Shown: positions 13,720-46,865 of the stretch, piece after piece
Numbering within the stretch: position 1 is the first letter of the stretch
Layout of the letters: every line of letters starts with the position of its first letter
Assembly: GCA_019090895.1 (NCBI GenBank)
Contig: JAHRVB010000228.1
Location: forward strand, 1-64,000
Direction of reading: 5' to 3'
Length of the DNA: 64,000 nucleotides
Origin: Kangiellaceae bacterium
GTDB lineage: Bacteria > Pseudomonadota > Gammaproteobacteria > Enterobacterales > Kangiellaceae
Notes under the pieces: model-generated
What the model was told of the DNA's origin: nothing
The model's input: only the letters and a program-made list of their open reading frames with translations
The model's database searches: none
Position numbers and translations under genes: made by a program

Positions 13720-16005
13720 TTAAAATTGGTAGCGGACTTTAACTAAAAAGTTATCGCCATCCCTTGCTTGCCAACCGGGACTAAACAAATTTGATAACGA
13801 GACATCTTCTTCAAGGTTTGATCGGCCTCCGCGACTATAAACGATGTAAATATTTGAGAGGGGCGATAGTTCGTAGCGATATCTTACCTGCATTGAAGTA
13901 TCGGAAACGCTAAAATTAGCAACTGATTGACTGAGCTCGTAAAGCTCTCCTGGTTGAGTAACTTGGAAAGCTTGCTGACCGCTAGCGCTAAGAGCGAGCC
14001 ATTCGACCTTAAAGATCAGCTCTTGCTGTTCATCAATTGTCGCGTTGAAATTAATGCGAGTAGTGAGTTGTTTTTTCTTATAGCTGTTTAGCTGATTAGC
14101 TTGCTGCCACAGCATCCAGTTTTCGCTATCGTAAAACCAGACCCCAATATTCAGTGAGTAGTGGTCAGTAAAGTAATAGGTGCCATGAGCATGAGCACTG
14201 AAACCGTTGCCTTTTATTGCTTGATCAAAAATAGCACTGTGCGCATGAAAGCTAGATTGCCCCCTACTAGCAGCGTGATAGAGTAGTTCAAATTGGTATC
14301 CGTCTTTAGTCGCGAGGATATTATTGCCACGAGTGATAAGATCATCGTGTGCGTTACTATTCAATGTTAGCCCCGTCATTAGGCTGCTGCTATCTTTCCA
14401 ATACCATGTATCAGATAAGTTAAAAGAAGAAACTAAGTGGACGCCTGCATTATTCTCCTGATGGTCGAACTCAAGATTAAACTTGTGTTCTTTGATTGAG
14501 CTTTCTAGCTCGAACTTGTTGTCCTGCCAACGGTTCGAATAACCAAATGATGTGAAATTATTGCGAGGCAAAAAACCCAAATCATTGACTTCAAAGTCAT
14601 CGCCAAAATGGTTAAGTTTTATTGTGTGTTGCCAATTGTTAGAAAGTTGGTGCTGAGCTTTAACAGTAACAGCATGATCCCGTTGCAGTTGATTGCGTTC
14701 GGAAATGTCAGAATAGATTAGATGAGATGAAATAGTTAAGTCTTGATTGATTTTATAGTCATAATCCAATGCTTGTACCGTTGCGTTTCTATCGATATCT
14801 GGACGGTCTGTGTGGGTAACTAAATAACCGATATTGTAGTTATGATTTTGGCTAATCACACGGCCAACATAATAATTACGGCCTTCTGAATCGGTACCTT
14901 CATCTTCTATAGCCGAGAAAATGCCATAGTTAAAATCTTGTCCAACGCTGGTAAATTTAAGCGCGCCTAGCAGATCGCTACCTAAGTCCTCACCAGTGTC
15001 GGGATTACTTCCAATTCGTCTTGTGTGTATCAATCGTAAAGAATTGGTTCCATTCAGATCGAAAAGTGTTTGATTTTCAGTAAAAAAAGGTCTGTTCTCG
15101 CTAAAGAAAGTTTCTGTCGGCGAAAAATTAACAACCAGCTGATCACTTTCTATTTGACCGAAGTCTGGATTAACAGTAATACTAAGTTGTTGGTTGTTCT
15201 TGGGCTTCCAAAATAAATCCAAGCCCGCATCGTAAATAGTCTCATTAGCAACGCGATCATTTCTTGACGAGCCGAAACCAAATACCTGCAATGATGACTT
15301 TGCATAATCATTTATTGTCAAAATCGGTAATTCTGATAAGAAACGTTGTCGACTATAATGAATTGGCGAGTTAGCATAAGTTTTAGATTGATGCGCAACT
15401 CGTCTCGATATATACAAGCCTATGTTCCGTTGTTCTGAATTTACATCAACCATCGGAGCAATATCCCAAGGAATATGAACTTCGACATACCAATGCTTTT
15501 CATCACTCGATGTTTTTGCGAACCAAACGCCATTCCATTCATAGTTATAACTATTTTCATTTTGGTAAGTGCCATCCTCAATTGAGCCACCATTAGCTAT
15601 AGTAAAACTATAAGCGGATAAGCCGTCATTATTGAAATCAATAACGATATTGTTATAGTCTGCATTCATATGCGCGTCTCGGGCGCTTCGTTGACTATAT
15701 TGAGTTGTTTTCTGTTGATGATTGGTAATTAAAAAGTAAATACCATGACTATCGCTGAAGGATTGAACTTCTGTCAGATAATCAGGCGCGTTTCGAGTGA
15801 AAGGTGCGACGGTGAAGAATGTGTTCTCGCTCTTTTGTTGCCGCCATTCTATGTCGTCTGGTTTTCCGTCAACCGTGATTGCGTGGAGTTCGGAAACTAA
15901 AAATAGTATGAATAGTTTAATTAATCGTCTTGCTATTCGTTGCGAAAATTTAATGATTGAAATACCGGCGTCTGTCAAATTACATTTTAATAGAGCATTA
16001 ATCAC
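13720..16005 (-). CDS. CBM9/DUF5916 outer-membrane-type protein
   Basis: The 761-residue protein has a signal peptide (core LIKLFILFLVSELHA), preceded by an unusually long n-region. Residues about 43-215 look like a family-9 carbohydrate-binding domain (DGKPDDIEWRQ, then DFNNDGLSAYSFTIANGG and WYVEVHIPW). From about 230 to the end is a DUF5916-type domain with many short amphipathic beta strands and a final aromatic residue (VKVRYQF), typical of an outer-membrane barrel. GTG start with AAAGG eight bases upstream. It is separated by 240 bases from the sigma/anti-sigma/PDZ operon, but its own upstream region carries the same bipartite element as the sigma gene. It is therefore a likely target of that sigma factor. 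The substrate is unknown. Confidence 0.85.
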   Translation of the reverse strand: MINALLKCNLTDAGISIIKFSQRIARRLIKLFILFLVSELHAITVDGKPDDIEWRQQKSENTFFTVAPFTRNAPDYLTEVQSFSDSHGIYFLITNHQQKTTQYSQRSARDAHMNADYNNIVIDFNNDGLSAYSFTIANGGSIEDGTYQNENSYNYEWNGVWFAKTSSDEKHWYVEVHIPWDIAPMVDVNSEQRNIGLYISRRVAHQSKTYANSPIHYSRQRFLSELPILTINDYAKSSLQVFGFGSSRNDRVANETIYDAGLDLFWKPKNNQQLSITVNPDFGQIESDQLVVNFSPTETFFSENRPFFTENQTLFDLNGTNSLRLIHTRRIGSNPDTGEDLGSDLLGALKFTSVGQDFNYGIFSAIEDEGTDSEGRNYYVGRVISQNHNYNIGYLVTHTDRPDIDRNATVQALDYDYKINQDLTISSHLIYSDISERNQLQRDHAVTVKAQHQLSNNWQHTIKLNHFGDDFEVNDLGFLPRNNFTSFGYSNRWQDNKFELESSIKEHKFNLEFDHQENNAGVHLVSSFNLSDTWYWKDSSSLMTGLTLNSNAHDDLITRGNNILATKDGYQFELLYHAASRGQSSFHAHSAIFDQAIKGNGFSAHAHGTYYFTDHYSLNIGVWFYDSENWMLWQQANQLNSYKKKQLTTRINFNATIDEQQELIFKVEWLALSASGQQAFQVTQPGELYELSQSVANFSVSDTSMQVRYRYELSPLSNIYIVYSRGGRSNLEEDVSLSNLFSPGWQARDGDNFLVKVRYQF

Positions 16006-16038
16006 TTTAATTACCTTTGTTGCGATAGTTAATAATTA

Positions 16039-16067
16039 AAGATGCTTCAGGTTATATAATCGTCGCA
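16039..16067 (-). promoter_or_regulatory. Putative ECF sigma promoter of the DUF5916 gene
   Basis: On the minus strand, TGCGACG-N14-AGCATCTT ends 33 bases before the GTG start. The same two blocks with the same 14-base spacer lie before the sigma factor gene (18026-18054), while the spacer sequences differ. Read as hexamers it is TGCGAC-N17-CATCTT, a normal -35/-10 geometry but not the housekeeping consensus. Confidence 0.7.
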
Positions 16068-16222
16068 AGAACATTGAACTTTTTGTGGAATCTAGTTTCG
16101 TTCTAAGTTCTATCTTTGAAGTCTTGGAGATAAAAGGCATAAGTTAGAAAGATGCTACTTAGGACATGTAGTACACAATCGACATTAAATGGCTTAGGAA
16201 TTGCTGGTCTTTTTGTTCAAAA

Positions 16223-16254
16223 TATTTCGCTATTTCGCTATTTCGCTATTTCGC
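16223..16254. repeat. Four tandem copies of TATTTCGC
   Basis: Four perfect 8-bp units are followed by a partial fifth (TATTTTGT). The array overlaps the last codons and stop of the PDZ gene, because on the minus strand it reads as repeated GCGAAATA and supplies the TAG. Units of 8 bp are not a multiple of three, but the stop falls within the first units read, so changes in copy number would mostly leave the protein unchanged. Confidence 0.9.
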
Positions 16255-16770
16255 TATTTTGTTGCTCACACTAAATTCATAGCCTGGCGCTAAGATACTT
16301 ACAATTGTGCTTTCACCAGTTTTGACCACACCATTATGAGAATAGGTGACTATAACTTTGTCTCCATCTTTTAATTCTTTCAAAAAAGTGGAATATTTAT
16401 CAGAGGTGAGTTGTGGTTCCAAGCCGGCTAATTTTAGTTGATTAATCTTGATCAATATATCCCCCGTTTTAATTCCTATTTTATAAGCGGCAGTGTGAGG
16501 GGTAACACATTTCACCTTAAATCCCTGAGTAGTACCTTTTCCGCATACACCGAAATGAACAAGTGTATGACCGGAATGACGCAATGAGAATTCCTTTTGA
16601 CTAGTAATTCTTAAGAGCTTAGATGCCAAAAACTCTAATTCTGTCCTGAGCAGCTTAATTTGCTCTTGCTGTATATCATTTAAAGCGTTGCTGTCTGAAC
16701 TGTCTTTCGCACAAACGTATTTTGAAAACAAAAAGGTGAGGGGGATCAAGAAATAAATCAAAACTTTCAT
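16246..16770 (-). CDS. Secreted PDZ-domain protein
   Basis: The 174-residue protein has a signal peptide (MKVLIYFLIPLTFLFSKYVCA) and a helical stretch at about 30-60. A PDZ domain spans about 75-165 (GFKVKCVTPHTAAYKIGIKTGDILIKINQ carries the typical 'A.k.Gik.GD.I..in' loop). No protease domain is present, unlike DegS or RseP. It begins four bases inside the end of the anti-sigma gene (ATGA overlap), so it is translationally coupled to it. PDZ domains bind C-terminal peptides, and an inferred role is to sense or present misfolded envelope proteins to the anti-sigma factor. The C-terminus lies in an 8-bp tandem repeat. Confidence 0.85.
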   Translation of the reverse strand: MKVLIYFLIPLTFLFSKYVCAKDSSDSNALNDIQQEQIKLLRTELEFLASKLLRITSQKEFSLRHSGHTLVHFGVCGKGTTQGFKVKCVTPHTAAYKIGIKTGDILIKINQLKLAGLEPQLTSDKYSTFLKELKDGDKVIVTYSHNGVVKTGESTIVSILAPGYEFSVSNKIAK

Positions 16771-17405
16771 AATAGTTCTCTCTGTTCTAGTGACTCTAGA
16801 ATTACTGGCTCTTTATTATAAGCAGCATGTAACGTATTTAAATGTTTAACCCTGTTTGTCCATAGAACTTCTAGTTGTTCTATATTTTTCTTGGATTGCA
16901 TATCAATTAATTGCTGGTCTAGCATAACGAGTTGCCATTGCAGCTTCTCGATCTGAAAGCTTTGTAGTTGTGTGAGTTGAATGTCATTCTCAGAGTAATT
17001 AGACAGAACATATTCCAAAGCACTTGATTGGGCTTGCAATTCAAGTAATAGGTTTTCTATTGGAGCGACAGGTGGCTGTTTGAAGTTAAATATTGCTGTG
17101 AATCCAACCGCTAAAATTGAAGCTGCCAGTGTGTATAGTGGGCGAGTGAGAGCATGTTTTTTTGTCAAAGGCACCTGTAGTAATTTGGCTCTTTGTCTTT
17201 CTTTATCGATGCATTTATGTGCGATAAGGATATCATCCCAGTGAGTACTAGGTGTGTGCTGAACGGCTACGTGATTAAGCTCTGTCGAGACACGGTCGAG
17301 TTTTAGAATTTCGTGTTGACAACTTTCGCATTTCGCGATGTGCCGACTGGCTAACCCGATTTCACCATCTCGAGCAGCGAGTAATTCAGTAATATTAGCA
17401 TGCAT
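16767..17405 (-). CDS. Zinc-finger anti-sigma factor
   Basis: The 212-residue membrane protein has a ZAS-type motif, H22-x3-C26-x2-C29 (RHIAKCESC), near its N-terminus; His2 may be the fourth ligand. A single transmembrane helix is at about 91-108 (YTLAASILAVGFTAIF), and the periplasmic part (about 113-195) is Gln/Leu-rich and likely coiled coil. This is the layout of anti-sigma factors that hold an ECF sigma factor at the membrane. Its start overlaps the sigma stop by one base (TAATG), and the PDZ gene overlaps its end. Pairing with the sigma factor is inferred from position and motif. Confidence 0.88.
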   Translation of the reverse strand: MHANITELLAARDGEIGLASRHIAKCESCQHEILKLDRVSTELNHVAVQHTPSTHWDDILIAHKCIDKERQRAKLLQVPLTKKHALTRPLYTLAASILAVGFTAIFNFKQPPVAPIENLLLELQAQSSALEYVLSNYSENDIQLTQLQSFQIEKLQWQLVMLDQQLIDMQSKKNIEQLEVLWTNRVKHLNTLHAAYNKEPVILESLEQRELL

Positions 17406-18019
17406 TACAAAACTTCCTTTTTAGAGGTGTTTTCTAACTCGGTCGAAAAACATTCTCGCAAGGTTTTAAAAGCTCTGGATAACAATGACTTAGAATAGCT
17501 TTCTGTTTTCCCCATCATAACCGAAATCTCTTGGTGGCTATAACCTTCGACTTCCTTTAACCAAATCACAATACGAGTAGCAGAGGGAAGCTTGGCTAAA
17601 GTCTTTTCTAAGGTCGACTCTACTTGATATTGGTGAATTCCTGCTCTATCAAGGTTCTCTAGGTTTATAAATTCTGCAATATTATAGATTTCGTCACCGC
17701 TATTTAAGTGGTGATGGTCGTCTAACCGTTTATTCTTTCTTAGTAGCATTAATGATTCATTAATAGCAATTTTTCTTAGCCACATACCAAATGGTGCCTG
17801 TGACTGAAAAGACTCAACACCATCAAGTACCTTAATAAAGGTATTTTGCAATACGTCCTCGGCCATTTCCCTCTGACTAGTCAATCTATATGCAAGGTTG
17901 AATACAGCGACTGAAAAGGAGTTAAAAAGTACTTCATGCGCAGACAAGTCTCCGTTTTTTGCACGGCTAATCACTGATGGCTCGATCGCCATATTAAAAG
18001 GTGATTCTTTATCTTTCAT
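17405..18019 (-). CDS. ECF-type RNA polymerase sigma factor
   Basis: This 204-residue sigma-70 family protein has region 2 at about residues 25-95 (VFNLAYRLTSQREMAEDVLQ, then NTFIKVLD and MWLRKIAINESL). A somewhat long linker leads to region 4 at about 135-190 (LAKLPSATRIVIWLKEVEGY, then SHQEISVMMGKTESYSKSLLSRA). There is no region 1 or 3, as expected for ECF factors. It is the first gene of a tightly overlapping sigma/anti-sigma/PDZ operon. A bipartite promoter-like element shared with the DUF5916 gene lies immediately upstream, suggesting autoregulation. No Shine-Dalgarno precedes the ATG, and the mRNA may be nearly leaderless. Met10 is an alternative start. Confidence 0.95.
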   Translation of the reverse strand: MKDKESPFNMAIEPSVISRAKNGDLSAHEVLFNSFSVAVFNLAYRLTSQREMAEDVLQNTFIKVLDGVESFQSQAPFGMWLRKIAINESLMLLRKNKRLDDHHHLNSGDEIYNIAEFINLENLDRAGIHQYQVESTLEKTLAKLPSATRIVIWLKEVEGYSHQEISVMMGKTESYSKSLLSRAFKTLRECFSTELENTSKKEVL

Positions 18020-18025
18020 ATATGT

Positions 18026-18054
18026 AAGATGCTATGAATTGATAAAACGTCGCA
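18026..18054 (-). promoter_or_regulatory. Putative autoregulatory ECF promoter of the sigma gene
   Basis: TGCGACG-N14-AGCATCTT on the minus strand has the same blocks and spacing as upstream of the DUF5916 gene. It ends only six bases before the ATG, so the start of transcription would fall at or next to the start codon. Confidence 0.7.
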
Positions 18055-46085: not shown

Positions 46086-46865
46086 ATGACAAACAATATT
46101 ACTTTATTTGATACTCATTGCCATTTAGATTTTCCTCAGTTTGGTGGCAATCTGAATAAGATGATTATCAAATCCGAAGAGGCTGGTATATCAGGTATAC
46201 TGATTCCTGGTGTAAAAAGAGACGGCTGGCGTGCGATTCGTCAAATTACAGCAACTCATTCTATATGTCATACCGCACTCGGCCTACATCCCATGTTTGT
46301 AGAGCAACACACCAAAAGCCACCTTCATGATTTAGAGATGGCTTTGTCGGTCGGGCCTATTGCTGCAATTGGGGAAATAGGGTTAGATTTCTATAATTCT
46401 ACAGCTAATCGAAGCATGCAAATCCATTTTGTCACGTCGCAGATCAGCATCGCTAAATCGGCTGAATTACCAATAGTTTTACACGTAAGAAAAGCACACG
46501 ATGAAATGCTTAAAATCATTACTCAGATGAAATTTAAAGGCGGCGGCATCGTTCACGCATTTAATGGTAGTGAACATCAAGCGCAAAAATACTGTGATTT
46601 AGGTTTCAAATTAGGTTTTGGTGGTGCCATGACTTATCCAAGAGCTGCAAAATTGCACCGTCTTGCCGCGACATTGCCGCTCGAATCAATTGTTCTAGAA
46701 ACGGATGCCCCTGATATGCCTCCTGTTACTTGCCAACAAAAATATAATACTCCGCTTCATCTGTTTGACAATTTCCGCAGTTTAGTAACCCTTAGACAAG
46801 AGTCTGCCGCTCAAATAGCAATGCAAACGACCATTAACGCCCATGCGATATTGAATTTAAACTAA
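46086..46865 (+). CDS. TatD family metal-dependent hydrolase
   Basis: The 259-residue TIM-barrel hydrolase has the first metal pair in FDTHCHLDF, the glutamate in AIGEIGLDFYN, histidine ligands in VLHVRKAHDEM and IVHAFNGSEHQAQKY, and the final Asp in LETDAPDMP. It is closest to the YjjV/TatD group, which are 3'-5' exonucleases or D-aminoacyl-tRNA deacylase-like enzymes. The length is normal. E. coli yjjV also lies near prfC, which supports a YjjV assignment, but the paralogues are hard to tell apart from sequence alone, so no symbol is given. Confidence 0.93.
   Translation: MTNNITLFDTHCHLDFPQFGGNLNKMIIKSEEAGISGILIPGVKRDGWRAIRQITATHSICHTALGLHPMFVEQHTKSHLHDLEMALSVGPIAAIGEIGLDFYNSTANRSMQIHFVTSQISIAKSAELPIVLHVRKAHDEMLKIITQMKFKGGGIVHAFNGSEHQAQKYCDLGFKLGFGGAMTYPRAAKLHRLAATLPLESIVLETDAPDMPPVTCQQKYNTPLHLFDNFRSLVTLRQESAAQIAMQTTINAHAILNLN

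Follow-up and report, generated by a model that had tools for sequence, protein, structure and literature searches.

The window, that is, the whole stretch of 64,000 nucleotides that was analysed, comes from a contig of a Kangiellaceae bacterium. It carries on its minus strand an operon for an ECF sigma factor, a putative anti-sigma factor and a PDZ protein, and, downstream of it, a DUF5916 gene. The features discussed in the text are as follows:

17405-18019, minus strand: gene of the ECF sigma factor, 204 aa, with Sigma70_r2 and Sigma70_r4_2 domains; putative specificity residues S178 (for the -35) and M91 (for the -10)
16767-17405, minus strand: gene of the putative anti-sigma factor, 212 aa, with HxxxCxxC (HIAKCESC) and one hydrophobic segment seen by eye
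16246-16770, minus strand: gene of the PDZ protein, secreted or periplasmic, 174 aa, without a protease domain (AF2 model and domain search)
13720-16005, minus strand: gene of the DUF5916 protein, 761 aa, GTG start; its C-terminal ...VRYQF is typical of outer-membrane barrels
18026-18054, minus strand: putative ECF promoter of the sigma operon; -35 TGCGAC (18054-18049), 17-nt spacer, -10 CATCTT (18031-18026)
16039-16067, minus strand: putative ECF promoter of the DUF5916 gene, the second copy; -35 TGCGAC (16067-16062), 17-nt spacer, -10 CATCTT (16044-16039)
18019, minus strand: predicted +1 of the sigma transcript, equal to the A of the sigma ATG, +/- 2 nt (our own estimate from ECF promoter geometry)
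16032, minus strand: predicted +1 of the DUF5916 transcript, with a leader of about 27 nt (from geometry only)
16014-16018, minus strand: AAAGG, a plausible ribosome-binding site for DUF5916, read from the sequence

The first gene of the operon encodes a protein of about 200 aa that matches PF04542 (5.7e-14) and PF08281 (2.5e-12) and has no further sigma domain, which places it among ECF sigma factors, as does the conserved bipartite promoter-like element of its own before the operon. It passes the sigma70-ECF model TIGR02937 (78.4 bits, cut-off 42.9), but not the RpoE equivalog TIGR02939 (74 bits, cut-off 236), and is thus not RpoE (sigma-E) proper. The putative anti-sigma gene follows directly after the sigma gene, an order that is kept in relatives. 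Its product carries HxxxCxxC in its N-terminal part, as do anti-sigma factors of the zinc-binding type; the motif was found in just 17/80 relatives, within 400 nt of the sigma stop, and is thus not universal in the family. Compared with curated families, the protein scored 23.8 bits with NF052375, under the cut-off of 100, and it had no Pfam match. The third gene, also kept in relatives, encodes the PDZ protein. The folds nearest to its AF2 model (pLDDT 89) are the PDZ domains of DegS/HtrA, including that of DegS with YQF/YRF peptides. A 10-nt unit, aaatagcgaa, is repeated four times head-to-tail at 16220-16258 (minus strand), spanning the stop codon of the PDZ gene.

The DUF5916 protein is a member of PF19313 (91.8 bits, gathering score 22.6), and is probably an outer-membrane beta-barrel protein, as judged from its sequence. 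A search for solved structures related to it by sequence found none, and the literature searched held no mention of DUF5916. No terminator-like sequence was found between the PDZ and DUF5916 genes, so that read-through from the PDZ gene could also express DUF5916.

The bipartite word TGCGACG-N14-AGCATCTT occurs on the minus strand at 18054-18026, before the ECF sigma gene, and, in the same exact form, at 16067-16039, where it lies 33 nt upstream of the DUF5916 GTG start. The initial annotation, made from the window alone, had placed two identical copies at these positions and on this strand, and on re-reading the match was exact; the hexamer form that it gave, TGCGAC-N17-CATCTT, was right as well. 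It had noticed no third copy, and indeed the sole other match in the window with up to three mismatches (46413-46441, three mismatches) is at chance level, 1.38 such matches being expected by chance. Pattern searches of the home assembly (4.96 Mb, about 91% complete) found exactly two copies of the full 15-base bipartite word, both of them in the window. The bare pair is nonetheless weak evidence, as the window holds 40 identical 7-N14-8 pairs and a coincidence would be unremarkable, which speaks for a chance repeat without function. Among the same-strand pairs at spacing 14, the element pair is the only one in the window with both copies noncoding. An extra AGCATCTT half-site lies at 16149-16156 (minus strand), about 110 nt upstream of the putative DUF5916 promoter. 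Its -35 position holds no more than a degenerate TGTGTA, and it is possibly a decayed promoter copy.

Relatives of the sigma factor were collected by a profile scan of 84,980 species genomes, which gave 80 homologous sigma loci (ECF/anti-sigma/PDZ operons). The nearest homologue is that of a Colwellia MAG (64%), and the others are mainly from Arenicella-type genomes and Woeseiaceae. The motif was sought within 150 nt upstream of the sigma gene in the 79/80 loci with enough upstream DNA. TGCGAC-N16-GCATC was present directly before the sigma gene in 66/79 loci, across several gammaproteobacterial families and with invariant spacing, whereas shuffling of the upstream regions gave 0.01 on average. 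Clearly, an element conserved to this extent is real. Together with the motif before DUF5916 genes in trans (see below), this comparison refutes the chance repeat, to which we assign a practically negligible probability.

Other promoter types accompany other related sigma factors. The sigma homologues of Rhodanobacteraceae have TGCGAC-N17-CGTC upstream, and the ECF paralogues of the home family itself have TGTAAC or TGTGAC with N17-TGTCT. In the tree, the window sigma factor groups with that of Colwellia (100/99) and then with the Arenicella type (95/80), separately from the paralogues of its home family; the group of the home genome includes relatives of Aliikangiella and Pleionea. A paralogous ECF/anti-sigma/third-gene operon of the same genome (G000:C220:2397-2948, L064) has a promoter of its own, TGTGAC-N17-TGTCTT.

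The base differences between these promoters are accompanied by differences in the sigma factors. Residue 178 was S or T with TGCGAC (80/80), V, I or A with TGTAAC (6/6) and Q with TGTGAC (n = 1), and the three independent pairs were all in agreement. This residue lies in the recognition helix of region 4.2, and through the alignment with Pseudomonas sigma-H it corresponds to S172 of sigma-E. In the work of Todor et al. 2020 on the rewiring of ECF specificity, a residue of the region 4.2 recognition helix reportedly tracks the -35 bases, an idea that is shared here for residue 178. Residue 91, in region 2.4, was M with CATC (69/69) and D, N, T or S with a GTC-type -10 (18/18), counts that represent just one or two independent events; the paralogous ECF of locus L199, which has a CATC -10 but Q instead of M, breaks this rule. 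As both residues were picked after seeing the data, the covariation is supporting evidence and not proof. It indicates that the window sigma factor itself would read the element. Two paralogous ECF operons that occur together in genome G102 (L199:2935-2962 and L088) differ in the -35 (TGCGAC versus TGTAAC) and in residue 178 (S versus A), as if they were mutually insulated.

Bipartite words can be operators too, and the sigma-promoter role is read here from sequence, so the repeated word might be bound by an ordinary transcription factor or be some other DNA element. Against this stand the fixed 17-nt spacing, a -10 that resembles known ECF -10 elements, the constant orientation and distance relative to the start codon, and the covariation with sigma regions 2.4 and 4.2, and we regard such a role as very improbable. 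For an ECF holoenzyme, 17 nt has also been reported as the best spacer length (PMC6411747).

The home genome contains 27 sites with at most one mismatch to TGCGAC-N16-GCATCT. Genes hold 24 of them, one is noncoding without a following gene, and only the two reported sites are noncoding and correctly oriented before a gene. A larger regulon in the home genome was rejected, as there are no more well-placed sites within one mismatch. DUF5916 (PF19313) genes were then sought in genomes carrying the sigma factor. In those of Colwellia and the Arenicella type, the motif was present near the start of 6/10 DUF5916 genes (four with one mismatch, two with two mismatches), while about 0.03 were expected from permuted motifs, which in 150 permutations never gave more than 1. 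One of the motif-bearing genes, in Colwellia, is not a neighbour of the sigma operon, and its product shares 53% identity with the window protein; for the Arenicella targets this identity is just 22-24%. A conserved adjacency of DUF5916 and sigma genes was rejected, as no DUF5916 match was found in the 80 sigma loci (up to 6 kb on each side). Because the motif precedes non-adjacent DUF5916 genes in Colwellia and Arenicella-type genomes, the link is independent of gene neighbourhood. At the DUF5916 genes of Woeseiaceae and other genomes the motif was at chance (2/70 at two mismatches, 0.72 expected), so the link is lineage-restricted. Taken together, these sequence comparisons argue that the link of DUF5916 to the element is real in one branch.

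A further reading accepts an ECF promoter, but has one or both copies read mainly by another ECF, such as the C220 paralogue or an RpoE-like factor. At least two more ECFs of related type are indeed encoded in the home genome, and a promoter can serve more than one ECF. However, the C220 paralogue has its own type of promoter before its gene and Q, not S, at residue 178, and across genomes the window motif tracks the window-type sigma factor. Moreover, in an Aliikangiella genome with the paralogue type only, where the DUF5916 protein is 55% identical to that of the window and the nearest ECF has TGTAAC-N17-TGTCT, neither motif precedes the DUF5916 gene. This makes another reader unlikely. The element is very probably the promoter (-35 TGCGAC, 17 nt, -10 CATCTT) of an autoregulated ECF sigma factor (18019-17405), whose local regulon would consist of its own operon and DUF5916. 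The initial annotation had proposed that the element is the recognition sequence of the sigma factor, which activates itself through it, and that it ties the sigma factor to DUF5916. The former is supported by the conservation before sigma genes and the residue/base covariation, and the latter by the non-adjacent, motif-bearing DUF5916 genes of Colwellia and Arenicella-type genomes. The two comparisons it had called for, of the genome-wide copies and of the same regions in relatives, also came out in its favour.

The distance from the element to the sigma start codon is nearly constant. Counting the A of CATC as -11, we computed a leader of 0-1 nt in 12 loci, those of the Arenicella/Colwellia type among them, and of 5-6 nt in 37 loci, mostly Woeseia-type. 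In another 15 loci the first in-frame start precedes +1 by 3-4 nt, and most of these have a second ATG in frame near +5. Since the distance that couples the -10 to the sigma start codon hardly varies, the sigma mRNA is predicted from this geometry to be leaderless or nearly so.

Sequence analysis established the conserved promoter-like element, where it is placed, that it also precedes DUF5916 genes of other genomes, and that it covaries with sigma residues. The scheme that we infer from them extends to actual transcription, control by the anti-sigma factor, the signal, the role of the PDZ protein and the function of DUF5916. In it, the released sigma factor would transcribe its own sigma/anti-sigma/PDZ operon, a positive autoregulation with the inhibitor encoded in the same operon, and would transcribe the DUF5916 gene from the second promoter copy. 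Positive autoregulation is the usual layout of ECF sigma/anti-sigma operons. As in RpoE-RseA of E. coli, a two-domain sigma factor (regions 2 and 4) is followed by a putative anti-sigma gene, the promoter is bipartite with rigid spacing, and the target is of the envelope type. Contrary to RpoE-RseA, the -35 and -10 are TGCGAC and CATCTT, the sigma factor is far under the RpoE equivalog cut-off, the third gene of the operon encodes a PDZ-only protein, the regulon would be tiny and local instead of global, and the promoter abuts the start codon.

The PDZ protein also invites comparison with DegS, whose PDZ domain senses the C-termini of outer-membrane proteins. The likeness of the model to DegS in complex with YQF/YRF peptides and the YQF end of the window DUF5916 protein suggest a sensing loop. 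A sensor protease of the DegS type has a trypsin-like protease domain and a PDZ domain; unlike it, the window protein is PDZ only, and its likeness to HtrA PDZ domains is generic (22% identity, TM-score 0.44 by query). The idea is weakened further, as most Arenicella DUF5916 targets do not end in YxF and as YQF is also the end of homologues that are not regulated. That the PDZ protein would sense the C-terminal YQF of DUF5916 is thus speculative. A broader proposal joins this sensing to the start geometry. In Arenicella-, Colwellia- and Woeseia-type operons, the auto-promoter would be fused to the sigma start codon, and a sigma mRNA that is leaderless or has a 5-6-nt leader, next to a DUF5916 mRNA with a normal leader, would bias the feedback at the level of translation; with the PDZ protein sensing the DUF5916 C-terminus, this would amount to a private, one-client circuit of envelope quality control. 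We consider this combination rather doubtful.

As a kind, an autoregulated ECF promoter that serves a small local regulon is nothing unusual. New here are the conserved trans link to DUF5916, the covariation of residues and bases, and the geometry of promoter and start codon. A description of this ECF family and its element was not found in the literature searched, and the analysis supplies a promoter motif and a target for this sigma group. DUF5916 proteins also obtain a first regulatory handle, and the covariation offers a code, open to testing, that would relate sigma residues to the -35 and -10 bases they recognise. In gammaproteobacteria, leaderless sigma mRNAs are predicted to be built into such an autoregulatory loop.

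Other apparent targets were lineage-specific. In four Woeseia-type genomes (L209, L212, L213 and L214), TGCGACGA-N14-GCATCT, or a sequence close to it, stands before a gene whose product is a secreted protein some 190 aa long; the one protein tested, that from L213, had no Pfam match. By its upstream sequence, this gene is likely a target of the ECF in these genomes. In the Arenicella-type L203 and L204, the motif was found before an M13-like peptidase gene (one genome) and a DUF885-like gene, both identified by eye only.
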